Source of the DNA: Cytophagales bacterium
GTDB taxonomy: Bacteria; Bacteroidota; Bacteroidia; Cytophagales; Spirosomataceae
Direction of reading: 5' to 3'
NCBI GenBank assembly: GCA_013298125.1
Contig: JAAFJP010000024.1
Location: 1-64,000 of the forward strand
Length of the DNA stretch: 64,000 nt
Position 1 is the stretch's first letter. Each line of letters opens with the position of its first letter. The position numbers and the translations under genes are program-made. Below are positions 1-13,900 of the stretch, piece by piece. The notes beneath the pieces are model-generated. The model worked only from the letters and a program-made list of their open reading frames with translations. It was not told the DNA's origin and did no database searches.

Positions 1-68
1 CCTGATAGTGTTGGACAACGGACAATTTCTCTGTCGCATTCCAACTTTTACGATGTTTGCTCATAAGT

Positions 69-110
69 ACACAAGTTAGGAATTTCCCTTACACTTGTGT
101 CCAGTTTTTT
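69..110 (+). terminator. possible hairpin terminator at the left edge
   Basis: ACACAAGT (69-76) pairs with ACTTGTGT (93-100) across a 16-nt loop, and a run of six T follows at 105-110. The stem is only 8 bp and the loop is long, so this is a weak call. No reading frame in 1-112 is recognisable. Confidence 0.25.
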
Positions 111-112
111 AG

Positions 113-253
113 CGGGCTGGCAGGAAAAAAGACCCTTACATACAGGTAATTATCAGATACAGAGCCAAAAACGGATTTGGTGCAATGATGTTGAATGAGA
201 CGGTTTTTAACTTTGATGAATCACTAAATATGGTAAAAACCTACAATAATTAA
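113..253 (+). pseudogene. remnant of a Bacteroidota secreted/lipoprotein-type gene
   Basis: An open frame from just after a TAG at 110-112 to a TAA at 251-253 encodes about 46 residues, including RYRAKNGFGAMMLNE. A YRAKNGFGA-like motif followed by a short beta strand is what I recall from the C-terminal end of small conserved Bacteroidota lipoproteins. There is no start codon before the motif and no signal peptide, so this looks like the 3' stump of a decayed or transposed gene. The match is from memory only. It could also be the genuine end of a gene whose upstream part has been frameshifted. Confidence 0.3.
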
Positions 254-275
254 TTCCTAAAATTAAACGTGTTCG

Positions 276-1304
276 ATGGAAAAAAGACAAAAAAGAGACA
301 AATATTTTGAATTTTGGAAAAAGGAAAAATTGCGTTTAGAGAAAGTAGAAAGGAAATTAAGAGAGAAAGAGGAAGAAAAAGAACGTAAAAAGATTGAAGA
401 AGAAAACAAAATATTAGAAGTAAAAAGGCTAAATAACTTAGCTATTGAAGAGTATTGTAAAAAAGAAAATTACGTCCAATCAGAAAGGAATATTTATGGT
501 ATATTAACCAAAACGGAGATTGAGATATTAGTAAGATATGCGTACAAATTGCATAGAAATATTACAGATGATAGATGTTTCTATATCATTAATAGAGATA
601 GAGTTGAATCAATGTCAAGACCTCAACTAATAAATTTTCAAGACATAGATAGAATCTCGTTATTAGAAAGATATTTGAAGGCAACACCTCAAATATACAA
701 ATTAGAAGATTTAAGGGAATACTTAAAAGGAGATAGAAGAAATAAGAAAATTTTTAATGTGTGTATAAACGATTTTGATGAATGTAACTTTTCTACAATG
801 AGACTCTGTTATCTTTTTCGTAAGGAAGAGTATTTTTATAGTGCTATTCGTCATTTGCTCAGAGATAGGGTTTTATTAATTTCATACATAGACAGATTAA
901 AAAGTGAGAATACAAACAAAAATCTATACTTGGAATGGAATTTAAACGAAAATCAAATAATTTATTTATACAATCAGTTTATCGAAAATGAAATTATAGA
1001 TAGAAAAATTCGTCTTGGTTTATTTTATCAAATATTTGATAATCAGGTAACTGACTTTAATCAGCCTATACAGATTAATTCTATGAATTTAGCGTGTTTT
1101 TTATTTTGGAGTAAAGGAAAAAATATCTTAATAAATAAACAACCATTTAAGATAATTGAGAACTTAAAAATGTTCTGTACCGCAGAAGGAAAACCTATTA
1201 CCTCCCATAATTTAAACAGGTATGTTTCAGAGTATAGAACAGATTTTGTTGAATGTACCAAACCAACATTTAAGAAAATTAAAGAAATTATCAACATGAT
1301 TTAA
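276..1304 (+). CDS. island hypothetical protein with charged N-terminal coiled coil
   Basis: A 342-residue protein I do not recognise. Residues 1 to about 58 are almost purely Lys/Glu/Arg (repeated KEEEKERKK-type heptads), predicting a long coiled coil or nucleic-acid-binding helix. The rest is Ile/Leu/Asn/Tyr-rich and looks globular, with no signal peptide or membrane span. The gene is much more AT-rich than the chromosomal genes right of 6200, which fits acquired DNA. It is the first intact gene of the island, separated from the HTH gene by a 588-bp repeat array. A function cannot be assigned. Cargo genes of satellites and IMEs often sit in this position, so an accessory or anti-phage role is possible but only a guess. 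Confidence 0.6.
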   Translation: MEKRQKRDKYFEFWKKEKLRLEKVERKLREKEEEKERKKIEEENKILEVKRLNNLAIEEYCKKENYVQSERNIYGILTKTEIEILVRYAYKLHRNITDDRCFYIINRDRVESMSRPQLINFQDIDRISLLERYLKATPQIYKLEDLREYLKGDRRNKKIFNVCINDFDECNFSTMRLCYLFRKEEYFYSAIRHLLRDRVLLISYIDRLKSENTNKNLYLEWNLNENQIIYLYNQFIENEIIDRKIRLGLFYQIFDNQVTDFNQPIQINSMNLACFLFWSKGKNILINKQPFKIIENLKMFCTAEGKPITSHNLNRYVSEYRTDFVECTKPTFKKIKEIINMI

Positions 1305-1341
1305 TCTATTTATGAGGGACATTAACCTAACATATAAAATA

Positions 1342-1774
1342 TTGATTATCAAATGATTACAATAAAATATTTGAAAAAATCGGATACACTTTACAAACAA
1401 TGATAGCCATAGTTTAAATATATTTTTGATGGAACACGGGAATTATACTAAGTATCTAAAAATCAATGTTTTATGGTATAACTTTTTGTGTACACTTTTT
1501 AGAAAAAAAATCAGAAATATGAAAACTATTTTACAATCTCTAACACCCACCCCTTAATATATTGATTTTCAGATATTTAACTTTGAAAAAAAAGGATACA
1601 CCTAAAATTAAATTTCATTAAAAATTAATTTTACTAAAATCGAACCTAAATTTTAAGTGTTTGATTATCAATTAGTTATGAAGTATTCTTTCTAATTTTT
1701 TGGTACACCGATTAATGTAAATATCTGATTTTTAATAGGTTATATCGTATGATTTATAAAGTTCTGATAATCAA
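1342..1774. repeat. degenerate tandem repeat array, about 106-bp period
   Basis: The gap between the first island gene and the HTH gene holds two alternating short motifs. Box A (TTGATTWTCA or its complement) lies near 1342, 1453 (inverted), 1561, 1661, 1721 and 1762. Box B (GGATACAC-like) lies at 1382, 1488, 1594 and 1702. The B boxes are 106, 106 and 108 bp apart. No convincing ORF lies here. Such an array next to an excisionase-like gene could be an iteron origin, recombinase arm sites or a regulatory region. Box A recurs in the loop of the hairpin at 6107-6143 beside the tRNA. Confidence 0.55.
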
Positions 1775-1891
1775 CAACTTACAATTTTAGATTATTGTGC
1801 AAATTTGAATTTTATACATATAGATTAATCCAAATACACCCAAAATTTGCATCATCAAACGGAGCGAACCAAAACCCGTTTATCCAAATAG

Positions 1892-2176
1892 ATGCAAACA
1901 CAAACAATTATCCAACACTCCCCCACGGAGTTTGTTGCCAACGTTGCGGAGGAGGTAGTTGAACGCCTCAAACCTCTTCTCAATAAACTAATTTCCCCAA
2001 CGCCAGAAATGCGTCTTCATTCAAGACAGGAAACTGCAAAAATCCTAAATATTGCCCTCAGCAACTTAGCGGAAAAGACTAAGAACGGGGAAATTACCGC
2101 CTCACGTCTCGGTTCACGTGTACTTTATTCAGACGAAGACATTAAAAACGCACTCACCAAAATACGCACCGTTTAG
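1892..2176 (+). CDS. excisionase/AlpA-like helix-turn-helix protein
   Basis: A 94-residue protein. Residues about 42-92 (SRQETAKILNIALSNLAEKT, then TASRLGSRVLYSDEDIKNAL) match the HTH_17/MerR-type DNA-binding fold: helix-turn-helix, a wing with an R-x-G-x-R-V-L-Y strand, then a final helix. The first 40 residues look like an oligomerisation helix. In Bacteroidota islands such proteins act as excisionases or AlpA-like activators that direct the integrase towards excision. It opens the gene run towards the rep-like gene and directly follows the repeat array, a likely binding region. A repressor role is the main alternative. Confidence 0.7.
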   Translation: MQTQTIIQHSPTEFVANVAEEVVERLKPLLNKLISPTPEMRLHSRQETAKILNIALSNLAEKTKNGEITASRLGSRVLYSDEDIKNALTKIRTV

Positions 2177-2261
2177 GCGTGTACGTTCACCAACTAAAAC
2201 CGATTGTACAAACTTGTAACTCATTAAAATAGAGTTACTTAAACAAACAAATACAAACATA

Positions 2262-2486
2262 ATGAAACGAGAATTTCAGAATAACGGGAAAACCGTTACT
2301 TACTACCGTATTGCCTTTACTTTGAGTGAACAGTCGCAACGGTACGGAAAAGAACCCATGATTAGGGATTTTAAGAAAGTCCCCACGGATTTAAAGATTG
2401 AGGAAACCCAAGACCCAAAAATCAAACTAAGGAGTGAGTATTTACTCCGTGGAAGGACGGTAAACGGAAATGTACTTTTCATTTAG
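2262..2486 (+). CDS. small island hypothetical protein (74 aa)
   Basis: Short basic protein with no recognisable domain. It starts KREFQNNGKTVTYYRIAFTL and contains several predicted beta strands. It lies between the HTH gene and another small frame, all on the same strand with short gaps, so it is probably co-transcribed with them. Base composition is as in the neighbouring island genes. No function is suggested. Confidence 0.45.
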   Translation: MKREFQNNGKTVTYYRIAFTLSEQSQRYGKEPMIRDFKKVPTDLKIEETQDPKIKLRSEYLLRGRTVNGNVLFI

Positions 2487-2512
2487 GATTAGAAAAAACC
2501 TCATTCCCTCCC

Positions 2513-2692
2513 ATGTTTAGGAGTGCCTTAGACGATAAGAAAAAGAGTGAGGTACATATCATTTTGTCGGACGATTATAAAACAATGACGATGTATGTTT
2601 TCAATAATTTCAGAGTAGAACGCCCCGCCCGTCCGATGTTTCAAAGTGAATTTATCAAACATTTAACCACGATAGGAGAATGGAAGAAATGA
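2513..2692 (+). CDS. small island hypothetical protein (59 aa)
   Basis: ATG at 2513 opens a 59-residue frame ending at TGA 2690-2692 inside the start of the next gene (ATGGAAGAAATGA overlap). The product contains SEVHIILSDDYKTMTMYVF and ends GEWKK. The close coupling to the next gene and the filling of an otherwise empty gap support a real gene. No domain is recognised. Confidence 0.4.
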   Translation: MFRSALDDKKKSEVHIILSDDYKTMTMYVFNNFRVERPARPMFQSEFIKHLTTIGEWKK

Positions 2693-2994
2693 ATTTTTAC
2701 AACACTATCCACCTGACAGGGGAAGACCTGAAAGACGGAAAAAAACAGGCAGGAACACAGGCAGGAAAGATTTTAGATTTTTTACAGGAACATTCAGAGG
2801 GAAAGTTTACCAGCTCAGAGATTAGAAAAAATTTAATTCAGAACGGTAAAATATCAGAGAAAACCCAAGAGTGTACGATTAGAGCGAGATTAACCGACCT
2901 TTCAAAGAAAGACTACATAATCAAGTTATCTGAATTGAGAGACGGATTTTATGGTAAACCAAACCACGTTTGGCAGTTGAAAACAGGACAATAA
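2680..2994 (+). CDS. winged-helix phage/mobile-element regulator-like protein
   Basis: A 104-residue protein. It begins NFYNTIHLTGEDL and then has an alpha-alpha-beta pattern (KILDFLQEH, TSSEIRKNLIQNG, IRARLTDLSKKDYI, YGKPNHVWQL) typical of small winged-helix proteins in Bacteroidota prophages and islands. Family members that I recall start at the MNFYNT methionine. An AGGAG at 2674-2678 would serve that start (2689) at a normal distance, so 2689 is a good alternative to 2680. It probably regulates the downstream rep-like gene, which lies 100 bp away. Confidence 0.55.
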   Translation: MEEMNFYNTIHLTGEDLKDGKKQAGTQAGKILDFLQEHSEGKFTSSEIRKNLIQNGKISEKTQECTIRARLTDLSKKDYIIKLSELRDGFYGKPNHVWQLKTGQ

Positions 2995-3094
2995 AAATGA
3001 GGGGGGAAATATTCCCTCCTCATTCGGTAATGTGTTCGATTGTACAACCCACACAAACCAAATTGCATGAATTAAACATATCACAAAGTTACAA

Positions 3095-4276
3095 ATGATT
3101 GACGGAATTAAAACATACGACTTGAAAACCGACCCTCAAAAGTTAATCGAAAATCCGTATTTAGATGGACATTGGAGAACTACCATAAATTCAGATGCAG
3201 AACCATTGTATGATTTTGCTGAATACTTTGGATTGAATTTCAAATTAAAACATGGAAAGATAAGATTGCAGGGGAGCGTACATAAATACCGTAATGCAGG
3301 ACGGCACAACTACGATGATTTTAGAGCCGTGGACGTTGCGGAGGTTGTACGGGAACTATCAGAACGTTTTGAGATTGACACCGCCAAGACCTTACTAAAC
3401 AACGTGGAGTTTGGCGTAAATGTGGTTTTACCCTTTGGGGTTAATGTTGTATTGGATAATTTAATTGTGTACAAAGGACAGCCTTTTAACTTCATTGAGG
3501 AGGAGAAAATGAATTATTATCAATGTAAGAGAGCAAAGTTTATTATCAAGATATACGACAAAACAAAACAGTTCGATTTACCAAACAACGTTTTAAGATT
3601 TGAAATTAAAGTTACTGCAATGCAATATCTTGAAACGAAGGGTATAAAATTACGGTATTTGTCCGACCTCCTCAATATGGAGATTTACGAACCTTTGGGG
3701 AATATTTTAACAGAAGTGTATGAAGAAATTTTGTTTGGAGACAATACGATAAATAAGAGTGATTTAACGACCAAAGAACGTCAAATATATTCAGATGGAA
3801 GTAACCCCAAAGAGTGGAAACCCCAGAAAGGGGAAACGGAGCGTAAAAGGTTGTATCGTTTAGAGAATGAGTTTAAGGGAATATTAGAACGCCACCGTAC
3901 AGGCGTAAATTTTAGGAGCGTAGTATCTGATTTAATCAGAGCGAAGAGTTTAGAATTGTCCCAAATATCACAAAATTCAATTACTGAAAATAGTGTTTTT
4001 AGTATGGTTTTGTTCCCCTATTTGTCAGATGAAAAAGATGATGGAAAAAGTCTATTTGTCCCAAATATCAACTTTAACTATACTCGACATTTGGGACAAC
4101 GCCCTAACACCAAAATAAAGAAGTGTGCAGGGTGCAGGAAAGTTTTAAAAGAGAATCAAATATCATATTGTTCTGATAGATGCAAAATTGAAAAAGACGG
4201 ACGGAATGCCAAGAGCAACGCCCGACACGCAACTATCAGAAAGTATGGTTTATTCTTACCGTCATTATTTAATTAG
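3095..4276 (+). CDS. putative replication initiator-like protein with C-terminal zinc finger
   Basis: A 393-residue protein. An N-terminal domain contains GSVHKYRNAGRHNYDDF (61-76) and EFGVNV (105-110), followed by KIYDKTKQF (152-160) and LRFEIK (167-172). A Tyr-containing KIYDK motif followed by a R-F/V-E-x-K strand recalls rolling-circle replication initiators (Rep_trans and filamentous-phage G2P types). The assignment is from motif memory and the HUH metal site is not clear. Residues about 344-363 form a Cys4 finger (CxxC near 344, CxxxC near 359), a tail common in this Bacteroidota family. FGVNVVLP/FGVNVVLD at 106-121 is a tandem 8-residue duplication. The gene is central in the island, as rep genes are in satellites and IMEs. 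Confidence 0.5.
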   Translation: MIDGIKTYDLKTDPQKLIENPYLDGHWRTTINSDAEPLYDFAEYFGLNFKLKHGKIRLQGSVHKYRNAGRHNYDDFRAVDVAEVVRELSERFEIDTAKTLLNNVEFGVNVVLPFGVNVVLDNLIVYKGQPFNFIEEEKMNYYQCKRAKFIIKIYDKTKQFDLPNNVLRFEIKVTAMQYLETKGIKLRYLSDLLNMEIYEPLGNILTEVYEEILFGDNTINKSDLTTKERQIYSDGSNPKEWKPQKGETERKRLYRLENEFKGILERHRTGVNFRSVVSDLIRAKSLELSQISQNSITENSVFSMVLFPYLSDEKDDGKSLFVPNINFNYTRHLGQRPNTKIKKCAGCRKVLKENQISYCSDRCKIEKDGRNAKSNARHATIRKYGLFLPSLFN

Positions 4277-4350
4277 GGAATGGTAAGATTATCAGAGCAA
4301 CAAAAAGTAAAAATTAAAAATCAATTCAAAAATTTAAAATCATAGAAAAC

Positions 4351-4680
4351 ATGACAGCATCATTAAAAATTGAAAAACAAGATTATGTAATTGAAAACGT
4401 AGAGTTTCCAAGTTACTTGACAGATATGACTTCACAGAGTGATTATTTTGTTGAAGTCAAAGAAACGCTAAGAGAAGTATTTGCAGAGTTTTATCATTCA
4501 GAGAGTTTCAAGACCAATGACGACACAGAAAGATTTAGAATTTTAGACTACTCATTGCACAGTTTATTAGATGATTTGTTCACGGCTCACAATAACGGCA
4601 GAAACAAACATATTCAAGAGCAACTTGATAAGATTAACAACCCTGACAAAGTTGAGCCAAAGAAAGAGATTTTGAATTAG
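4351..4680 (+). CDS. island hypothetical protein (109 aa), acidic
   Basis: An acidic, mostly helical 109-residue protein without signal peptide or membrane span. It follows the rep-like gene by 74 bp on the same strand and is the last gene before the terminator at 4912. No domain is recognised. Position and size would fit a replication accessory or regulatory protein, but nothing in the sequence shows this. Confidence 0.5.
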   Translation: MTASLKIEKQDYVIENVEFPSYLTDMTSQSDYFVEVKETLREVFAEFYHSESFKTNDDTERFRILDYSLHSLLDDLFTAHNNGRNKHIQEQLDKINNPDKVEPKKEILN

Positions 4681-4911
4681 AGAATTATTTGAGGGTGTGG
4701 GGTTTTGTTCCTATACCCTTCTATTATTCTGTTATTTAGAATAATTTTAGATAAATATTCTTTTGAAATACTACTTTATAGAAAACGTTTCTGCAAATGA
4801 GTTAAATTTTAACAAATTATCAATGAATTAGATTTATCATTGTAATATTCTCAAAGAATGATTATTTTTATTGAGAAATGTATAAAATTTGGTGGTTTGG
4901 GTAATACAGAA

Positions 4912-4937
4912 CGTTCTTCATCGAGAGGAGCGTTTTT
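4912..4937 (+). terminator. intrinsic terminator of the island gene run
   Basis: CGTTCTTC (4912-4919) pairs with GAGGAGCG (4925-4932) through a 5-nt loop with two G-U pairs, followed by five T. The right arm GAGGAGCG is identical to that of the terminator at 5995-6023, so the island uses two related terminators. Confidence 0.75.
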
Positions 4938-4956
4938 GTATTTTAGTCCACAGATT

Positions 4957-5368
4957 GAGAACCCCACAAAACCCCACATTTGCCCAGAAAGTAACGAAAG
5001 TAATGACCTAAAAGAAAACCTGTCAAAACCGTACATTTTGCGTAAAACCGAACGAATCAGACGACCTAAAAAGAACCTCATAAAATCTCATGTTTTCAAA
5101 GGGTTTGAGTTGTTCAAAAAGCTAACATTTGCTAACCTTTTCTTTACTATGAGGAGGATTTAAAAACCTTACTAAACTTTACTTTTTGAATGCGAAAACC
5201 TTACAAAACCTTACATTTTGAGTATGAAAACTTAACTAAACTTAACCTTTTGAAAGAAAAATAACATCGTGATAACACCGTGAAAATGCTAAAAACTGAA
5301 CACTTTGGACACTCTAAAAAAGGGGTGAATTATCGAACCCGAAAACCTTACCAAACCCAACCTTTTGA
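4957..5368. repeat. iteron-like array of AAACCTTAC double half-sites
   Basis: At least eight related units, starting near 4957, 5015, 5071, 5116, 5163, 5195, 5227 and 5342. Each unit has two copies of a 9-mer close to AAACCTTAC, followed by a T-rich end (TTTTGA in the later units). Units at 5163, 5195 and 5227 are exactly 32 bp apart, about three helical turns. Earlier units are more diverged (AACCCCAC, AATCTCAT). The array fills most of the 868-bp gap upstream of the terminase-like gene. The regular phase suggests cooperative protein binding: an origin or a packaging/partition site. Confidence 0.6.
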
Positions 5369-5548
5369 AGTATATGGAAAAGGTAAATAAATAAGATAGA
5401 AATAAGATAGAACAGTAAAATTAATACGATGGAAATAAGAGAAAAAGTAAAATTTACAGGTGCATAACAGGTACAAATGGTTAAAATAAATGGTGCATAA
5501 ATGGTGCAAAGAGTAAAATTAAATAAGAGATAAATAAGAGAAACGACC

Positions 5549-5947
5549 ATGCCAGCGACAAAAAAGAATGAGTTTTGGAAGTTGAGAAACCGCCACGGGA
5601 AACCGCCCAAATATGACGATGCAGAAACGTTTGTAATAGATGCAAACAGATACTTTGATTACATGATTGAGAACCCATTTAAGAAAGAGGTTATTTACTC
5701 ATTCAATGGTAAAATCGTAAAAGGTTACATCACTAAACAAAGACCTTTTAGCATAACAGGATTTTGCGTATTTCTTGGTATTCCAAAAAGGAGTTTTTAC
5801 AACATGGCGAAGGATGCAAGGTTAATGCACATCGTTACCCGTGTGCGTGATATAATTTGGTTAAATCAATATGAAGGAGCGTGTGCAGGAATTTTCAACG
5901 CAAATATCATTTGGAGGAAATTGTGTTCAATCGAGAGGGAGGTTTAG
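5549..5947 (+). CDS. terminase small subunit-like DNA-packaging protein
   Basis: A 132-residue protein. Its order of motifs (RHGKPPKYDD, ANRYFDYMIENP, RPFSITGFCVFLGIPKRSFYNM, then EGACAGIFNANIIWRKL) is that of Bacteroidota terminase small-subunit-like proteins: a basic N-terminus, a helix, a T-x-x-G-x-C-x-F-L-G helix-turn-helix, and an E-G-A-x-x-G-x-F-N-A-N helix. The usual C-terminal tail is short. The small subunit recognises the packaging site on phage DNA. No large subunit, portal or capsid gene is present, which is unusual for a prophage but normal for a satellite that redirects a helper's packaging. It sits directly downstream of the repeat array. Confidence 0.55.
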   Translation: MPATKKNEFWKLRNRHGKPPKYDDAETFVIDANRYFDYMIENPFKKEVIYSFNGKIVKGYITKQRPFSITGFCVFLGIPKRSFYNMAKDARLMHIVTRVRDIIWLNQYEGACAGIFNANIIWRKLCSIEREV

Positions 5948-5994
5948 GAATCAAAGGATAAATTTTAATAGTTTATAGGTGAATAGTGATTAAA

Positions 5995-6023
5995 CGTTTC
6001 TCAATTTGGGAGGAGCGTTTTTT
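5995..6023 (+). terminator. intrinsic terminator after the terminase-like gene
   Basis: CGTTTCTC (5995-6002) pairs with GAGGAGCG (6010-6017) with two G-U pairs and a 7-nt loop, followed by six T (6018-6023). It shares its right arm with the terminator at 4912. Confidence 0.75.
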
Positions 6024-6032
6024 GTTTAAAAA

Positions 6033-6082
6033 GTGTCCCCCAAAAATAGCAAATGAAAAAAAGTGTCCCCCAAAGTGTCCCC
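6033..6082. repeat. three direct repeats of GTGTCCCC near the tRNA end of the island
   Basis: AAGTGTCCCC occurs at 6031 and 6061, and GTGTCCCC again at 6075. The copies lie 70-120 bp from the tRNA 3' end, where arm-type binding sites of a tyrosine recombinase usually lie. That role is inferred from position only. Confidence 0.4.
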
Positions 6083-6106
6083 ATTGAAAAATTTAGGTCA
6101 AAAAAT

Positions 6107-6143
6107 AACCCATAAATATCTGATTATCAAATATTTATGGGTT
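6107..6143 (-). terminator. terminator of tRNA-Arg, with a box A motif in its loop
   Basis: A perfect 13-bp stem (6107-6119 with 6131-6143) has an 11-nt loop containing TGATTATCAA. On the reverse strand the stem is followed by TTATTTTTT-type sequence, fitting termination of the leftward tRNA transcript. The loop motif matches box A of the array at 1342-1774, so the site may also bind an island protein. Confidence 0.6.
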
Positions 6144-6151
6144 TTCAGTTG

Positions 6152-6223
6152 TAGCCCCAGCGGGAATCGAACCTGCATCTTAGGTACCGGAAACCTACAT
6201 TCTATCCATTGAACTATGGAGCC
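6152..6223 (-). tRNA. tRNA-Arg (anticodon CCG)
   Basis: Reading the reverse strand, GGCTCCA pairs with TGGGGCT (two G-U pairs) as acceptor stem. The D arm is GTTC...GAAT, the anticodon stem TAGGT/ACCTA closes loop TTCCGGT (anticodon CCG), and the T arm GCAGG-TTCGATT-CCCGC has one A-C mismatch. The discriminator base is A and CCA is not encoded. The 3' end faces the island at lower coordinates, so it is the probable attachment site. The second attachment copy would lie left of the window. Confidence 0.93.
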
Positions 6224-6241
6224 AGTTAATTCTTTACAAAA

Positions 6242-6961
6242 TTACGAAAACTTATCTAACTGCTTGACCAAAACCTCAAAATCTTTTGGGTAGGGTGCTT
6301 CAATTTTTATTATCTCTTCGTTCAACAATCTAAATGTCAGTGAGTGGGCATGAAGAGCAACCCGCTTAATTAGGGGCAATTCTTCTGTTTCTTTTTTGAG
6401 GTTAAATTTTCGTTTTATATCCGATAAATAAATCATCTCGCCTCCATACGTAGGATCACACACGATGGGGGCTTTCAGACACACCAAGTGTATGCGGATT
6501 TGGTGCATACGTCCTGTGATGGGCATACACTCCACGAGGGTATGATTCCTATAAACTTTTATCGTATTAAAAATCGTATCGGCTTCTTTTCCTTTTTGGC
6601 GGTCAATAGCAACCATCGTACCATCTCGCTTTATAGCAATGGGTAAATACACCGAGATCATTTCTAAGTCATGCGTTCCATTAACTACGGCATGATAGCG
6701 TTTTTCGACCTGACGATGCTCAAATTGCATAGAAAGATGACGGTAAGCCGCTGGATTTTTGGCAATTGCTAATACGCCCGAAGTCTCCTTGTCTAAACGA
6801 TGACAAAGCTGAGCATCATCGGCGTACTCTTTGGCTAACCGCAAGATACTCTGAGAGTTATCAGCTTGGCGTTCGTCTAAAGAAGCGATGTGTGGCGGTT
6901 TATTTATCAGAATATAATCGTCGTTCTCGAATATAATTAAGTCTTTAAAATTCAGTCGCAT
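6242..6961 (-). CDS. RluA-family RNA pseudouridine synthase
   Basis: A 239-residue enzyme that isomerises specific uridines in rRNA or tRNA. The catalytic motif HRLDKETSG is at 54-62 with catalytic Asp57. The family motif GRMHQIRIHL lies further on, and VYLPI, GKEADTIF and CDPTYGG segments agree with the RluA fold. There is no N-terminal S4 domain, so it is of the short RluA/RluC-core type. The exact target site cannot be told from sequence. It lies 18 bp upstream (in map order) of the tRNA gene and is read in the same direction, so the tRNA may be transcribed with it or from its own promoter. Confidence 0.9.
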   Translation of the reverse strand: MRLNFKDLIIFENDDYILINKPPHIASLDERQADNSQSILRLAKEYADDAQLCHRLDKETSGVLAIAKNPAAYRHLSMQFEHRQVEKRYHAVVNGTHDLEMISVYLPIAIKRDGTMVAIDRQKGKEADTIFNTIKVYRNHTLVECMPITGRMHQIRIHLVCLKAPIVCDPTYGGEMIYLSDIKRKFNLKKETEELPLIKRVALHAHSLTFRLLNEEIIKIEAPYPKDFEVLVKQLDKFS

Positions 6962-7112
6962 AAAGGATGTTTTTCATTTTTGGTAATTATCAAATCACCT
7001 ATTTTTGAGCTACAAAGTTACCAAAATAAAACGAAACGGATTCAAGTCCTTGCTACAAACCGTAAATCCTCTAAAACAAGGTTCTATCACATTAAGGTAG
7101 GCACTGAAATCC

Positions 7113-7199
7113 AGTTTGCAGTAGGCAGTCAGTAATCAATCTAAGTGATTAATAATAAGACAGTTAGGTTTGAATATGGCTAACTGCCCACTGCAAACT
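7113..7199. repeat. inverted repeat pair (AGTTTGCAGT family)
   Basis: AGTTTGCAGTAGGCAGT (7113-7129) is the near-complement of ACTGCCCACTGCAAACT (7183-7199), with one unpaired position and about 53 bp between. It lies in the 323-bp gap between divergent genes 6242-6961 and 7284-7790. It looks like a small dispersed palindromic element. Nothing else is seen in this gap. Confidence 0.6.
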
Positions 7200-7283
7200 A
7201 TTTACTTACTTCTACATATTTTTTCATTCGATTAATAAAAATCCTTAATTTTAATTCTGTAAACCAAAATTCAATCCCAATCC

Positions 7284-7790
7284 ATGACTTTACGAGACAT
7301 CTTTGACCAAATTTCCATTAATCCCAACGGCTTACTTTGGTTTTTGGTTTGTATTCCTTTACTGACATTTCTCATCAGCATTTGGCAAGACCGAAACACG
7401 CCTCCGCAATTATCTCCTACCCGTTATGGATATGCGGCTATGGCATATTTAACCAGTATTCCTGGGATTTTTGCGATTACTTTAAACGTCTATTTATTCC
7501 TTTTTGAGCGTCAAAGTATTTGGGATATGAACCTCATTACTCAGCTTTTACCCATCGTTACCATGGTCGGAACACTCATTATTATCAAACGAAATATTCC
7601 ATTTGAATACGTACCAGCTTTCGGAAAATTATCAGGATTTGTAACGTTGATTTTTGCGATGATTGGTATTATGTGGTTTGTGGATAGACTCCGAATTTAT
7701 GCCATTACCTACATTCCTTTTCAGTATATTGCCATAACTTTTATTGGAATGTTGCTATTAATTCGCTTTGGGTGGAATAAAATGTTTTAG
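7284..7790 (+). CDS. conserved Bacteroidota integral membrane protein, unknown role
   Basis: A 168-residue hydrophobic protein with about five membrane segments: near 17-34, 50-73, 84-100, 113-132 and 142-163. The loop after the first segment carries QDRNTPPQLSPTRYGYAAMAY. No enzymatic motif is visible. It stands alone, divergent from the pseudouridine synthase gene, with a 94-bp gap to the next envelope protein. I cannot assign a function. Confidence 0.7.
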   Translation: MTLRDIFDQISINPNGLLWFLVCIPLLTFLISIWQDRNTPPQLSPTRYGYAAMAYLTSIPGIFAITLNVYLFLFERQSIWDMNLITQLLPIVTMVGTLIIIKRNIPFEYVPAFGKLSGFVTLIFAMIGIMWFVDRLRIYAITYIPFQYIAITFIGMLLLIRFGWNKMF

Positions 7791-7884
7791 GCTCTTGCCG
7801 TAAAATAAAATACATTCTTTTTTCGACAGTTTTTTTACTTTTAAATGTAACTTGCCAATAAAAAACAAATTCACCCCCTACGAA

Positions 7885-8559
7885 ATGCGGTCTATAACCC
7901 TAATTATTAGCTTTTTACTATTAACAGTTACCTGCGATGCTCAAACAAAAAAAGACCGTAGTTTTTTTAGATTTGGATTGAGAAATGTCTCTGTTCGTGG
8001 AGAAAATATCGGTCTTCAAGAAAACATGGGCTTGAAACCTGTTATTGATTTAGGTTTTGGGCTTACCTATAACCTATCAGACCATCTTCGTTTTCAGCCA
8101 GGTATTCAATATTCTCCACGGGGTTTTAATGCAAAAAGTAAATTTACAGACTCTACTTTTGTTGAAAATACGCTTGAATTACATTACTTAGATATTTGCC
8201 CTAATTTCAGCTATGCTTTCGGAGGATTTAATAGCTATGGCACACGCTTAATTGTGTGGGGAGGTCCGTATTTAGGTGTTGGTATTGGAGGAAAAAATTA
8301 TGAATCTGGGACTATTCTAAATACAAAGAAGATAAAGGCTGATAGCACTTTTAACAATACAAAATTTACTTTTAGTAATGGGCTGAATCGAATTGACTAC
8401 GGATTTAACGTAGGTTTGGGTGTACAGGTAGAAAAATTTACGCAGGTAGGTGTTGCCTACAGCATGGGATTCAACAATATTGCGGATAATAAAATTTTTA
8501 CCGTCTATAATCAGTCATTTGGATTTTATGTGACTGTTCTATTTGATGATATGTTCTGA
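7885..8559 (+). CDS. outer-membrane beta-barrel protein (PorT-like fold)
   Basis: About 224 residues from the ATG at 7885. That start puts a signal peptide (MRSITLIISFLLLTVTCDAQ) directly at the N-terminus; an upstream TTG would only add an unlikely extension. The mature part is a chain of amphipathic beta strands (FGLGLTYNLSDHLRFQPGIQYSPRGF, YGFNVGLGVQVEKFTQVGVAYSMG) ending in an aromatic residue, the pattern of Bacteroidota outer_membrane_beta-barrel proteins. The strands are too general to name it PorT itself. Two terminators and a long hairpin follow it. Confidence 0.75.
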   Translation: MRSITLIISFLLLTVTCDAQTKKDRSFFRFGLRNVSVRGENIGLQENMGLKPVIDLGFGLTYNLSDHLRFQPGIQYSPRGFNAKSKFTDSTFVENTLELHYLDICPNFSYAFGGFNSYGTRLIVWGGPYLGVGIGGKNYESGTILNTKKIKADSTFNNTKFTFSNGLNRIDYGFNVGLGVQVEKFTQVGVAYSMGFNNIADNKIFTVYNQSFGFYVTVLFDDMF

Positions 8560-8673
8560 TGCTTGAATAGTCAATTAGCATTATCAACCAAGAAAGAGAT
8601 TAGGTGGAAAACCCATTTGTGCTTTGATGGATATTACGGTTGAAAGGGATGGAACAGCAAGTATTTTAGCATC

Positions 8674-8713
8674 AAAAAAAGTCCTTCAAATTGAGTTTTG
8701 AAGGACTTTTTTT
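8674..8713 (+). terminator. strong intrinsic terminator
   Basis: A 17-bp perfect stem (8674-8690 with 8697-8713) around a 6-nt loop ends in seven T. The core AGTCCTTCAA/TTGAAGGACT is shared with the terminator at 8847-8879. Confidence 0.85.
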
Positions 8714-8727
8714 GTGGTTATTAGAAT

Positions 8728-8830
8728 TTATAAGTCGCCAAAAGTGGGGTAAAAAAGGTAGTTTTGGCTGGATATAAAATTTATAAGTCGCCAAAACTAC
8801 CTTTTTTACCCCACTTTTGGCGACTTATAA
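8728..8830. repeat. perfect 40-bp inverted repeat with 23-nt loop
   Basis: 8728-8767 is the exact reverse complement of 8791-8830. The sequence TTTATAAGTCGCCAAAA at the left edge is repeated directly at the loop/right-arm junction, so the order is A-B-A-B'-A'. It lies between two related terminators in the 380-bp gap before the TPR gene and has no ORF. Formation by template switching or an inverted duplication is likely. Confidence 0.9.
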
Positions 8831-8846
8831 TTTCAAAATGAATTAA

Positions 8847-8879
8847 AAAGTCCTTCAAGTAATACGCTCGAAGGACTTT
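8847..8879 (+). terminator. second, related hairpin terminator
   Basis: AAAGTCCTTC (8847-8856) pairs with GAAGGACTTT (8870-8879). Poly-A precedes and a short T-rich stretch follows, so it could work in both directions. Its stem is nearly that of the terminator at 8674. Confidence 0.6.
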
Positions 8880-8909
8880 CTTGTTATAAAAACTCTAAAC
8901 TAAATCCCT

Positions 8910-8917
8910 TATATTTG
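8910..8917 (+). promoter_or_regulatory. possible -7 box (TATATTTG) of the TPR gene
   Basis: TATATTTG fits the Bacteroidota -7 consensus TAnnTTTG and lies 22 bp before the ATG at 8939. No good -33 TTTG is found at the usual 19-21 nt spacing, so this is a weak call. Confidence 0.35.
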
Positions 8918-8938
8918 ATATTCATTTTCATAATCATA

Positions 8939-10918
8939 ATGGCTAAAAGAAAATTAATTAAAGAAGAGGAAAAACCTTGGTATAAAGAAAAGTGGTCAAA
9001 GTTTATAGTTGTTGGCGGATTTGTTATTGGAGCAATCAACTTCTATCCTAATCTAAAACAATTTTACCAAGATATAATACAACCTCATATAAAAACCTCT
9101 TCTAATGAGGGAGAGAATACTACTTTACCTTTCCCTAAAAAATTCCAAAAAGATAGCCTCTACGTCTTAGTCACAAGGTTTGAAGACTATATTTCCAAAA
9201 AAGAAACAGAGTGCTTTGGACATTCTTTAATTAGGAGAATAGATGTCATTAAAATCGAAAAAAACTTACCCGTTTCCTTCAAATATGAGCCAAAATTAGC
9301 TCCAAAAACAAAGGATGAAGCCAGTAAAATACAAAAACAATACAATGCTGATTTGGTATTTTGGGGAAGCATCAAAAACATTGAAAAAGATTGTGGTGCA
9401 GGAGATTTATGTTTTAGAAGTCAGCCATCGGATACACTTATACACTTGGCTGGTGGAGATACCTCTCCTCAAAAAATGGATGTAAAATATGAAATAGGGA
9501 TAAGTCCGTCTGATGTAGAACAAGGGGCATTTCATGTGAATGAAAAACGATTTGATTCTTGGCTTTTGGCTATTTATAATGTTAAAATTGGAAGGTATAA
9601 CCCTGATTTATATGTGATTGATGAGTCGTTAAACATATTTGAAAAAGTAAAAGCGAATTTAGAGAAATCACAACTATTTTATACACTCAATAAGTATCAA
9701 AAAGCGTTAAAATATGCTGATGTAGCTTGTGATTTACTGCCTATTTCGCAAGCATATAGTTGTAGAGGAAGAATAAAATATCAGTTAAATGATTTTAAAG
9801 GGTCTATATTAGATTTTACAAAAGCAATAGAATTAGACCCCCAAAATCCGTCCCATTATTTAAATAGAAGTACAGCTAATTATAGAATGAATAAATTTAA
9901 TGATTGTATTGACGATTTAACACAATTAATAGCATTGGATAGTTCTTTCTCAAATTTAAATTTAGAAATATTCTCTGAATCAGATATATACAATCTTTTA
10001 GGAATTGCAAAGATGAATATAAAAGATTTTAAAGGAGCAATTAGTAGTTTTTCAAAAGCAATTTCTTCTGACTCTACCGAGTCAATGCCATATTCTTTCC
10101 GAGGTAAAATTAACTTACATTTAAAGAATTATGAAAATGCGAATAAAGATTTTTCAAAAGCAATCTTATTAGAACCAACTTTTGCGGGACATTATTACTG
10201 GCGAGGTAAATTAGAGAATGAATTGAAGCAACATGAAGTTTCAGTTAATTACTTATCATCGGCGATTAAAATAGACCCAATATATAAAGAACCATATTTT
10301 TTACGAGGTAAAATATATATGCTTGAAAAAAAGTATCGTGATGCGGAAAAAGATTTTTCAAAAATAATTGAGTTAGATTCTATAAATTTCCCTGATGCCT
10401 TTCTCCAAAGAGGTGTTGCACAAGTTGAGCTAAATAATTACGAAAATGCAGTAATTGATTTTACGAAATATATTCAGATAAATCCCAAATCAACAGTAGC
10501 GTATATTTTTAGAGGAGTTATAAAAATGAGATTTCAAGAGAATGAAAGTGCCGTTTATGATATTACCAAAGCTATAAAACTAAGTCCTCAAAATGAAATG
10601 ACTGACTTCCTTTATCATTCAAGAGGTGTTTTAAAATATAGACTAATTGATTACAAAAGTTCCATAATCGATTTTAATGAAGCTATCAGAATAAATCCTA
10701 AATACGCAGAAGCATATTTTAACCGTGGTGAAGCAAAAGAAAAATTAGGCTTAAAAGAAGAAGCCAAAAAAGATTTTCTAAAAGCAAAACAACTGGGTTA
10801 TGTAGAAAAGAAATCTCTACAATGGTATTATCCACTAATGTCTTTTTTGCTTCTTACTTTATATTTATACATTTTCAAAAATAAAATGATAGCCCGTTTC
10901 AAAGCGGTCAATAAATAA
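8939..10918 (+). CDS. membrane-anchored tetratricopeptide repeat protein
   Basis: About 659 residues from the ATG at 8939; an upstream in-frame TTG is less likely. One membrane segment follows the basic N-terminus (KFIVVGGFVIGAINF). A middle domain of about 200 residues contains ADLVFWGSI, like the Bacteroidota N-terminal domain that senses or binds an unknown ligand before TPRs. Then come about ten TPR units (for example SCRGRIKYQLNDFKGSILDF and AYFNRGEAKEKLGLKEEAKK), and a C-terminal membrane segment (YYPLMSFLLLTLYLYIF). The repeats should scaffold protein-protein contacts. Topology with both ends in the membrane is unusual for simple TPR proteins. It is 29 bp upstream of the BNR gene, a possible operon. 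Confidence 0.8.
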   Translation: MAKRKLIKEEEKPWYKEKWSKFIVVGGFVIGAINFYPNLKQFYQDIIQPHIKTSSNEGENTTLPFPKKFQKDSLYVLVTRFEDYISKKETECFGHSLIRRIDVIKIEKNLPVSFKYEPKLAPKTKDEASKIQKQYNADLVFWGSIKNIEKDCGAGDLCFRSQPSDTLIHLAGGDTSPQKMDVKYEIGISPSDVEQGAFHVNEKRFDSWLLAIYNVKIGRYNPDLYVIDESLNIFEKVKANLEKSQLFYTLNKYQKALKYADVACDLLPISQAYSCRGRIKYQLNDFKGSILDFTKAIELDPQNPSHYLNRSTANYRMNKFNDCIDDLTQLIALDSSFSNLNLEIFSESDIYNLLGIAKMNIKDFKGAISSFSKAISSDSTESMPYSFRGKINLHLKNYENANKDFSKAILLEPTFAGHYYWRGKLENELKQHEVSVNYLSSAIKIDPIYKEPYFLRGKIYMLEKKYRDAEKDFSKIIELDSINFPDAFLQRGVAQVELNNYENAVIDFTKYIQINPKSTVAYIFRGVIKMRFQENESAVYDITKAIKLSPQNEMTDFLYHSRGVLKYRLIDYKSSIIDFNEAIRINPKYAEAYFNRGEAKEKLGLKEEAKKDFLKAKQLGYVEKKSLQWYYPLMSFLLLTLYLYIFKNKMIARFKAVNK

Positions 10919-10947
10919 AAATCATCATCAACCTAATATCACAAAAA

Positions 10948-13900
10948 ATGAAAAACCAATACATTATCCTTTTAGCCCTAACACTGACTTTCTCAGTAAA
11001 TGCCCAAAAGAAAAAGAACCAACAACAATCCAACAATTCAACAATTCAACAACTCAACTTCACGTCCGCAAGCGAGCGAATGAAGGCTTATGACCAACGT
11101 AAAGCTCTGGAAATGAAATCATTAGTCAATAATGTAAAGTTTCGTTCTGTTGGTCCAACCGTGATGTCGGGACGGGTGGTTGATGTGGATGTTAATAATC
11201 AAAACCCTACGGAATTTTTCGTGGCTTATGCTTCGGGTGGACTTTGGAAGACTGAAAATAATGGCATTAGCTTCTCGCCACTCTTTGATAATGAGGCAGT
11301 TATGACCATTGGTGATATTGCCGTCGATTGGAAAACCAAAGGCAAAACTATCTGGATTGGCACGGGCGAAGCCAATTCTTCTCGCTCATCCTACGCAGGT
11401 GTGGGAATGTACAAAAGCGAAGACGGAGGCAAAACTTGGCAACACAAAGGCTTGGACGAAACGCACCATATTGGCAAGGTGATTTTGCACCCAACCGACC
11501 CAAATACGGTCTGGGTAGCGGCTTTGGGCAAACTTTATACGCCCAACAAAGAACGTGGATTATTCAAAACTTCCGATGGCGGAAAGACGTGGAAAGAGAC
11601 GCTTTTTGTGGACGAAAACACGGGAGGCGTAGATTTGTCCATCGACCCAAGCAATCCAAATGTCTTGTATGCGGGCTTATGGCACAAACAACGTAAATCG
11701 TGGAATTTTGTAGAATCTGGCAAAACTACGGGTATTTATAAATCAATCGACGGTGGTGAATCGTGGCAAAATATCACGGGCGAAGGTTCAGGTTTTCCAC
11801 AGGGTGAAGGCAATGGTCGGGTTGGGGTAGGTATCTCTCCACAGAATCCAAATATTGTGTATGCAGTTTTAGATAATCAGAAAAATCGTCCTGATGATGG
11901 CAAGAAAAAAGTTGATAATACTCTGAATGCCAAGCAATTAAGAGCCATGACGGCTGAACAATTTTTGGCTTTGGAAGACAGTAAATTAACGGAATATTTA
12001 GACGAAAAACGTTTTCCAGAAAAATACACCACCAAGTCCTTGAAAGCGGATGTAAGGGCGGGTAAATTTCAAGTGTTGGACATTGTAAAATTTACCGAAA
12101 ATGCCAATGATGATTTGTTCGATACACCCATCACGGGGGCGGAGGTTTATCGTTCGGATGATGCGGGTAAAACTTGGAAACGTACGCATAAAGACTATTT
12201 AGATTGGGTTTTCAATACCTATGGCTATTATTTCGGAACGGTTTTCGTGGCTCCCGATAATGCTGATAAAATCGTAATTCCTGGATTTCAAATCATAAAA
12301 TCAGCCGATGGGGGTAAAACTTTCCAGTCGATGAATGCCGATAATGCCCACGCCGACCACCATATTGTTTGGATAAATCCTACCAATTCTAAGCACCAAA
12401 TCTTAGGAAATGACGGTGGAATTAATATCACCTATGACGATGGGAAAACGTGGTTTAAAGCCAATACACCTGCCGTCGGACAGTTGTATGCCGTGCAAGT
12501 GGATATGGCAAAACCGTATAATGTTTATGGTGGTTTGCAGGATAATGGCGTATGGTTTGGACCTTCCTCGAACAAACCTGACTACGATTGGTACGATAGC
12601 GGACAATATCCTTTCAAGCGAATTATGGGTGGTGACGGAATGCAAGTTGCGGTGGACACTCGTGATAATCAAACGGTTTATACAGGTTTTCAATTTGGTA
12701 ATTACTTCAAAATCAATACATTAACGGGTTCGCAGAAGTATTTGCAAATGCCCCAAGAAATTGGTGAAGTCAAAAATCGTTTCAACTGGCAAAGTCCAAT
12801 TTTACTGTCAAAACACAATCAAGATGTAGTGTATTTTGGAGGAAATCGCTTTTTCAGAAGTTTGGATAAAGGCGAAACTTGGAAGGCACTTTCGGGCGAT
12901 TTGACCAAGGGCGGAAAAGAAGGCGATGTACCTTTTGGAACAATTGCCACCATTGACGAATCACCTTTGAAATTTGGGCTTTTATACGTGGGAACGGATG
13001 ATGGATTTATTCATATTTCAAAAGATGGCGGCTACACTTGGACGAAGATTTCGGACGGTTTACCTCAGAATCTTTGGGTGAGTCGGGTCAATGCTTCCAA
13101 TCACAATGAGGGAACTGTTTATGTGTCCTTGAATGGGTACAGAGACGACCATTTTGCGGCTTACGTCTATCGTTCGGACGACTACGGACAGACATGGCAA
13201 AAATTGGGCGAAGACCTCCCAACCGAAGCCGTTAATGTAGTAAAAGAAGACCCTAAAAATCCAAATTTACTCTATGTGGGAACAGACCACAGTTTGTACA
13301 TTTCCTTGAATAAAGGAAAATCTTTTATGCGTATGTCGAGCGATATGCCCGCCACTCCCGTACATGATTTGGTAGTGCATCCACGTGATAATGAGTTAGT
13401 TGTGGGTACACACGGACGTTCGATTTATATTGCTGATGTAAGTTTAATTCAACAATTGGCGGATTCTTTGATGGATAAAAATTTGCATTTATTCACGATG
13501 AAGCCTATTAACTTAAATCCACGTTGGGGCAAAGTTGATGCCATGCGAAAATATGATGAACCTGAAAAAAGAGAATATCAAATTCCGTATTTTACAAAAG
13601 CATCAGGTAAAACGAAAGTAAATATTTCAACGGATAAAGGCTTGATTTTGAAAGAATTAACGGACGATAATGAGACAGGAATTAACTATGCCATTTGGGA
13701 TTATACCATTAATCCAACGGCTGTTAAAGATTATGAAAAACACTTAAACGATACGAAGAAAAAGGACGATAAAGCCATCGTGTTGGAGGAAGGCGAAGAC
13801 AAGCAATTTTACATCAAAGCGGGTAAATACAAAGTAGTTTTTGAGACCAACGGAGCAAAATCAGAACAATCTTTTGAAATAAAAACCCCCGAAAGACGCT

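Follow-up and report, generated by a model that had tools for sequence, protein, structure and literature searches.

Does a gene for a small terminase subunit (TerS) lying close to a tRNA-Arg gene, in the company of an excisionase-like and a replication-like gene, mark a phage satellite in a genome of Cytophagales? The window, i.e., the whole stretch of 64,000 nucleotides that was analysed, represents bases 1-64000 of contig C17 of the source genome (G000), and the island in question lies at the contig end. The initial annotation proposed here a satellite similar to phage-inducible chromosomal islands (PICIs), based on an excisionase/AlpA-like HTH gene (1892-2176), a rep-like gene (3095-4276), a TerS-like gene (5549-5947), and a tRNA-Arg 3' end, and all four were recovered at these places.

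Boundaries and gene content of the island

The features of the island and its end in the window are as follows:

1..124, minus strand: end of an IS3-like insertion sequence (IS; transposase 5' end), inside which contig C17 breaks
125..253, plus strand: 3' portion of an ORF of 168 codons that the IS interrupts (5' portion at C28 127-508, minus strand)
276..1304, plus strand: orf342, no family found
1892..2176, plus strand: excisionase/AlpA-like HTH protein, with weak family matches, kept beside Rep in relatives
2262..2692, plus strand: orf143 homologue, frameshifted (alignment to genome G035, see below)
2680..2994, plus strand: orf104, phage-associated family (phrog_9069, 3.7e-15)
3095..4276, plus strand: Rep-like protein of 393 aa with a C-terminal Cys cluster, putatively acting in replication
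4351..4680, plus strand: orf109, kept in G035 and weakly in genome G002
4681..5548: A+T-rich region, then direct repeats in pairs with a period of 10-11; candidate origin of replication (repeat-start count)
5549..5947, plus strand: TerS, P22 gp3 homologue without the C-terminal tail (family models, 3p9a profile match, AlphaFold)
6031..6082: direct repeats of AAGTGTCCCCC in pairs, probably arm sites of the integrase, with further copies beside the integrase gene on C28
6149..6165: attR core TTGTAGCCCCAGCGGGA, with the other copy at C28 2963-2979
6151..6223, minus strand: tRNA-Arg(CCG), the integration target, 3' end facing the island

The IS end at 1-124 is repeated at the starts of contigs C42, C47, C53, and C32, and the opposite IS end was located at C28, C72, C60, and C46. 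The 4-bp target duplications pair these contigs uniquely as C17-C28 (AAAA/TTTT), C42-C72, C47-C60, and C32-C46, with C53 having no target-duplication partner. Since the target duplications of C17 and C28 pair, and since the 168-codon ORF closes with a continuous frame when the IS is removed together with one target duplication, C28 is, on these sequence grounds, the other side of the IS at the C17 start. The window starts at the IS break, so the integrase and the second attachment copy of the tRNA end, which the initial annotation had advised to look for to the left, were out of its view; both are on C28.

The island spans 8,873 bp between 17-bp att repeats, the IS excluded, and its genes are arranged in the order: integrase (Int), small ORFs, excisionase-like HTH gene, Rep-like gene, repeat array, and TerS. 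The 17 bases TTGTAGCCCCAGCGGGA constitute the 3' end of tRNA-Arg in the window, and their second copy is upstream of the integrase gene on C28. This gene, accompanied by small ORFs, encodes a tyrosine integrase with Phage_integrase, SAM_5, and Arm-DNA-bind_5 domains. Repeats of the arm type match at both island ends: those at 6031-6082 have a 27-bp match on C28, and the paired GTGTCCCCC repeats found near attR are also upstream of the integrase gene. Twin repeats of period 12 precede int in most relatives of the island as well. Beyond both att copies lie host genes, named upon inspection of their translations, namely a DEAD-box helicase gene on one side, and tRNA-Arg with a pseudouridine synthase gene on the other. 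In the genus loci examined for an empty-site comparison of G000, tRNA-Arg was nowhere accompanied by the helicase-side flank of C28.

The island proteins include no detectable large terminase (TerL), portal, capsid, tail, or lysis protein, and the named phage functions are only TerS, Int, and a weakly matching excisionase. The statement of the initial annotation that capsid and large terminase genes are missing is correct both for the island and for the vicinity of TerS. Its excisionase-like HTH gene is present, but the family matches are all weak: HTH_17 (9e-4) and TIGR01764 (1.3e-4), neither of which reaches the curated cut-off, and the phrog_1840 excisionase (0.004); the G035 copy matches at 2.2e-4. 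The orf143 homologue of the window differs by one base in a G run from the intact copy of G035, which may be a real mutation or a sequencing error. A DUF6932 protein encoded within the island, adjoining the integrase (C28 986-1447), matches the PADLOC candidate defence family PDC-M63A.

Related elements in other Cytophagales genomes

The genes of HTH, orf143, orf104, Rep, and orf109, the array, and TerS occur in the same order in a Cytophagales MAG of another genus (G035, JAAFJL010000095.1), where the TerS end of the cassette is at the 3' end of tRNA-Phe. In G002, which belongs to the same genus as G000, an uninterrupted sister element occupies the same tRNA-Arg. It consists of an integrase gene, three ORFs, HTH, orf143, orf104, Rep, an orf109 homologue, and an acetyltransferase-like gene, the last being where TerS sits in G000, and its 17-bp att pair, TTGTAGCCTCGGCAGGA, is 8,849 bp apart. 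The position of the G035 copy at tRNA-Phe and of the G002 sister at tRNA-Arg supports the movement of the element as a unit. In G004 and G005, tRNA-Arg adjoins the AlkD-like gene next to which the G002 element lies, so that the site there is without this element; the elements met at tRNA-Arg were only other Int/HTH/Rep elements. The G000 and G002 elements are of similar length (8,873 bp vs. 8,849 bp) although their cargo differs, which might point to a size limit for packaging, as far as two elements can indicate it.

Genes of the Rep family were found in 24 of the 291 Cytophagales genomes, in most cases with a related integrase gene as neighbour and often with an HTH gene; several of the more distant Rep relatives lie in elements bounded by clean att repeats at a tRNA or tmRNA gene. 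Most of the Int/HTH/Rep relatives examined have no TerS; among the closest relatives, this applies to G002 and G890, the latter a 5.2-kb member at a tmRNA-like end with clean att ends and no structural genes. Comparison of these loci indicates that the Int/HTH/Rep element family is real and mobile and, because G002 and G890 are devoid of TerS, that TerS is one of its accessories and not a part of its core. Other cargo of the relatives includes, by inspection of translations, DarTG-like, restriction-like, and toxin-like genes.

Several further observations concern these and neighbouring families. A pair of DarT- and DarG-like genes, recognised by inspection of translations, forms the cargo of one related element (L063 7453-9137). 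In TerS-less relatives, small basic or HTH proteins are encoded directly after Rep (L079 9154-9417, L060 7870-8124, and L071 8307-8597), and one such protein matches a Terminase_5-type HTH among many other HTH families; it is possible that they are packaging-related analogues. A 27.6-kb element between 25-bp repeats in G057 (contig C3, L065 with L080/L081) has Int, HTH, and Rep of the same families, two TerS (phrog_309), a TerL, and a tape-measure-like gene, and no capsid or portal was noticed in it. A different island lies between bat-operon-like genes in G801 (contig C21, L214, about 90-13720). It encodes an integrase, HTH_17, DUF3987, DUF6371, a tape-measure-like protein, a DUF5681-like protein, and a P22-type TerS of 146 aa, with no TerL or capsid, and may possibly be a second kind of Bacteroidota satellite, one with a tail gene. 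The existence of this third, unrelated TerS-bearing island without TerL makes further satellites in Cytophagales plausible.

The small terminase, the Rep-like protein, and the repeat array

The ORF at 5549-5947 encodes a TerS, as the initial annotation had suspected, and this is of the P22 gp3 type. The protein matches Pfam GP3_package (1.3e-14) and the phrog_606 terminase small subunit (5e-30), its profile matches the P22 gp3 structure (PDB 3p9a) at 6e-64, and it is about 35% identical to phage TerS in tblastn. Its AlphaFold model (pLDDT 81.8) has 3p9a chains as the sole significant Foldseek matches, and the core fold and HTH are intact in it; both the HTH and the oligomerisation core are homologous to those of P22 gp3. 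The difference concerns the C-terminus. In the island TerS proteins of G000 and G035, only 6 residues follow the conserved RDLG, vs. 19-50 (median 35) in 51 viral relatives, which are 147-209 aa long. In P22 gp3, residues 140-162 bind TerL, and tail deletion abolishes both DNA binding and the association with TerL (PMC9611059). The absence of the tail argues that the island TerS cannot act alone as P22 gp3 does. The redirection of helper packaging by TerS, assumed in the initial annotation, did not find support, given the absence of the tail that in P22 is needed for TerL and DNA binding and the lack of TerS in most relatives.

The TerS proteins of G000 and G035 are conserved (89%; dN/dS 0.20-0.28). 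Given these dN/dS values and the identical end point of the two island copies, the short form appears, as judged from these two genes, to be kept by selection and not to be decaying. A TerL-sized gene is directly downstream of TerS in nearly all viral and chromosomal relatives, and TerL follows TerS in four prophage-type loci of the same TerS family and in most others; the islands have none. A degenerate TerS match is also present on contig C42 of G000.

In the case of the Rep-like protein, neither a recognisable family nor a PDB match was obtained with family models and profile search, its AlphaFold model from two input sequences (pLDDT 36.6) gave no usable fold, and no relatives were found in IMG/VR, phages, or plasmids. 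It belongs to a conserved family whose genes adjoin those of Int and HTH, and an iteron-like array comes after Rep in three of the four closest copies. The rep-like gene of the initial annotation is therewith retained as a conserved gene, and we infer its replication role from this context only.

The array between orf109 and TerS, with 34 repeat starts vs. 1.5 expected, is the densest stretch of the window. Its degenerate 25-base motif recurs in G035 and in the TerS-less G890 but in no other of the 222 family genomes; it is also absent from the viral contigs of IMG/VR, which were searched with it for a helper. A packaging site tied to TerS was favoured at first, as the TerS-less relatives seemed to have no array, and was given up in view of G890. 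Because in G890 the array follows Rep in the absence of TerS, the arrangement favours origin iterons as the better reading of the array. Both halves of the array pairs vary together between copies, e.g., CTTAAC in G000 and CTTCAC in G035, which was seen in the window (4681-5548), in L027 (3150-3873), and in L232.

Origin of the island and its relation to known systems

On balance, though with no great confidence, we interpret the island as a phage satellite in its integrated state that follows the general plan of PICIs; judging by its gene content, its spread probably depends on a helper virus that it exploits and perhaps sabotages. In such a case, a helper phage would trigger the HTH/Int pair and the element would excise, Rep would copy it from the array, and its DNA would travel in helper particles. 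The TerS could act on the helper terminase in either of two ways that we rate about equal: as a member of the helper TerS ring, which it would steer, or as a tail-less poison subunit. The satellite interpretation is favoured by the exact ends, the identity of TerS, the absence of any other phage morphogenesis gene, the presence of the cassette at a second tRNA in another genus, the G002 sister with an att pair of its own, and the low dN/dS of TerS. Against it are the lack of the TerL-binding tail and the TerS-less state of G002 and G890. A broad TerL model (phrog_2), used to search G000 for a resident helper, found only a PhoH gene. Of the satellite proposed in the initial annotation, the integrase, the att pair, the TerS without TerL, and the mobility stand; the redirection of packaging by TerS was not supported in the form proposed there, no helper was identified, and TerS proved to be an accessory. 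Our more specific suggestion, that in some Bacteroidota satellites a tail-less TerS co-assembles with the helper TerS ring as a poison subunit and blocks or diverts headful packaging, is tentative and more doubtful than probable.

The main rival of the satellite interpretation is a non-satellite integrative element that uses TerS purely for defence. A tRNA-integrating element spread otherwise (plasmid-like, by mobilised conjugation, or by transformation) would have captured a phage TerS as cargo, which would poison the terminase of infecting phages as a tail-less subunit. We consider this rather unlikely. The points in its favour are that most relatives have no TerS and carry cargo of other kinds, such as the DarTG-like, restriction-like, and toxin-like genes, with the acetyltransferase-like gene of G002 in the very TerS position; the island has the DUF6932/PDC-M63A candidate defence gene; and the TerS tail is missing in both copies. 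However, defence genes are also carried by phage satellites, no relaxase or mobilisation family was found among the island proteins, and searches against 72,556 plasmids revealed no similarity at the DNA level, nor any for Rep at the protein level. Mobilisation of the island through an oriT in trans may occur.

That the island is a prophage remnant, in which everything after TerS was lost, is already hard to hold and seems to us improbable. The Int-to-TerS order would fit the early-to-late order of a prophage, and the 27.6-kb element of G057 does combine related Int/HTH/Rep with TerL, a pair of TerS, and a tape-measure-like gene. Yet the same compact layout at two tRNAs in two genera, the conservation of TerS (89%, dN/dS about 0.2), and the 8.8- and 5.2-kb sister elements with clean att ends and no structural genes speak against a remnant. 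As regards a prophage proper, the island has no TerL, portal, or capsid gene, is flanked by host genes at both att copies, and lies in a genome with no TerL detectable by phrog_2. The loss of TerL and DNA binding upon tail removal in P22 (PMC9611059) could also indicate that the island TerS has no role beyond that of a DNA-binding regulator, or is a relic without function; with the core fold and HTH predicted to be intact and the gene under purifying selection, this appears very improbable.

In the literature searched, coverage of which is incomplete, we found no description of a phage satellite in Bacteroidota. The exact ends, the intact sister, the comparison sites without the element, and the conserved tail-less TerS make the island and its relatives a concrete system in which one can test whether such satellites exist and ask if phages may be attacked with a truncated TerS.

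The closest systems are the Cytophagales Int/HTH/Rep islands themselves (G002, G890, G056, G038, and others), which share the Int, HTH, and Rep families, the arm repeats, and the tRNA or tmRNA att sites with the G000 island but have no TerS and carry other cargo. P22 gp3 (PDB 3p9a) has the same fold as the island TerS, with about a third identity over the core, but is of 162 aa vs. 132 aa, and the residues that bind TerL and DNA in P22 are absent from the latter. The PICMI elements of Vibrionaceae resemble the island in their small size, their int, alpA, and replication genes, their low gene number, and the absence of capsid remodelling genes; they differ in having no terS, in integrating downstream of fis, and in encoding a primase instead of the island Rep (PMC10803314). 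The criteria for PICIs are that an integrase, a replication module, and a master regulator occur in conserved order, that genes for structure and lysis are lacking, that prophages never occupy the attachment site, and that a helper phage induces and packages the element and suffers interference from it; PICIs are typically of 12-15 kb, and only a part of them carry terS (PMC6092414). As to this gene set, in the island the integrase is certain, the HTH match is weak, the Rep is assigned by inference, and structural and lytic genes are absent. PICIs, including SaPIs, have likewise an integrase at one end, an AlpA/excisionase-like regulator, a replication gene, site-specific attachment, terS in some members, and phage-resistance-like cargo. 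The island differs from them in its Bacteroidota host, its size of 8.9 kb, its Rep of no recognised family, and its tail-less TerS of the P22 gp3 type. While we do not claim PICI membership for the island, in the features compared its plan appears to fit the published PICI criteria apart from size.
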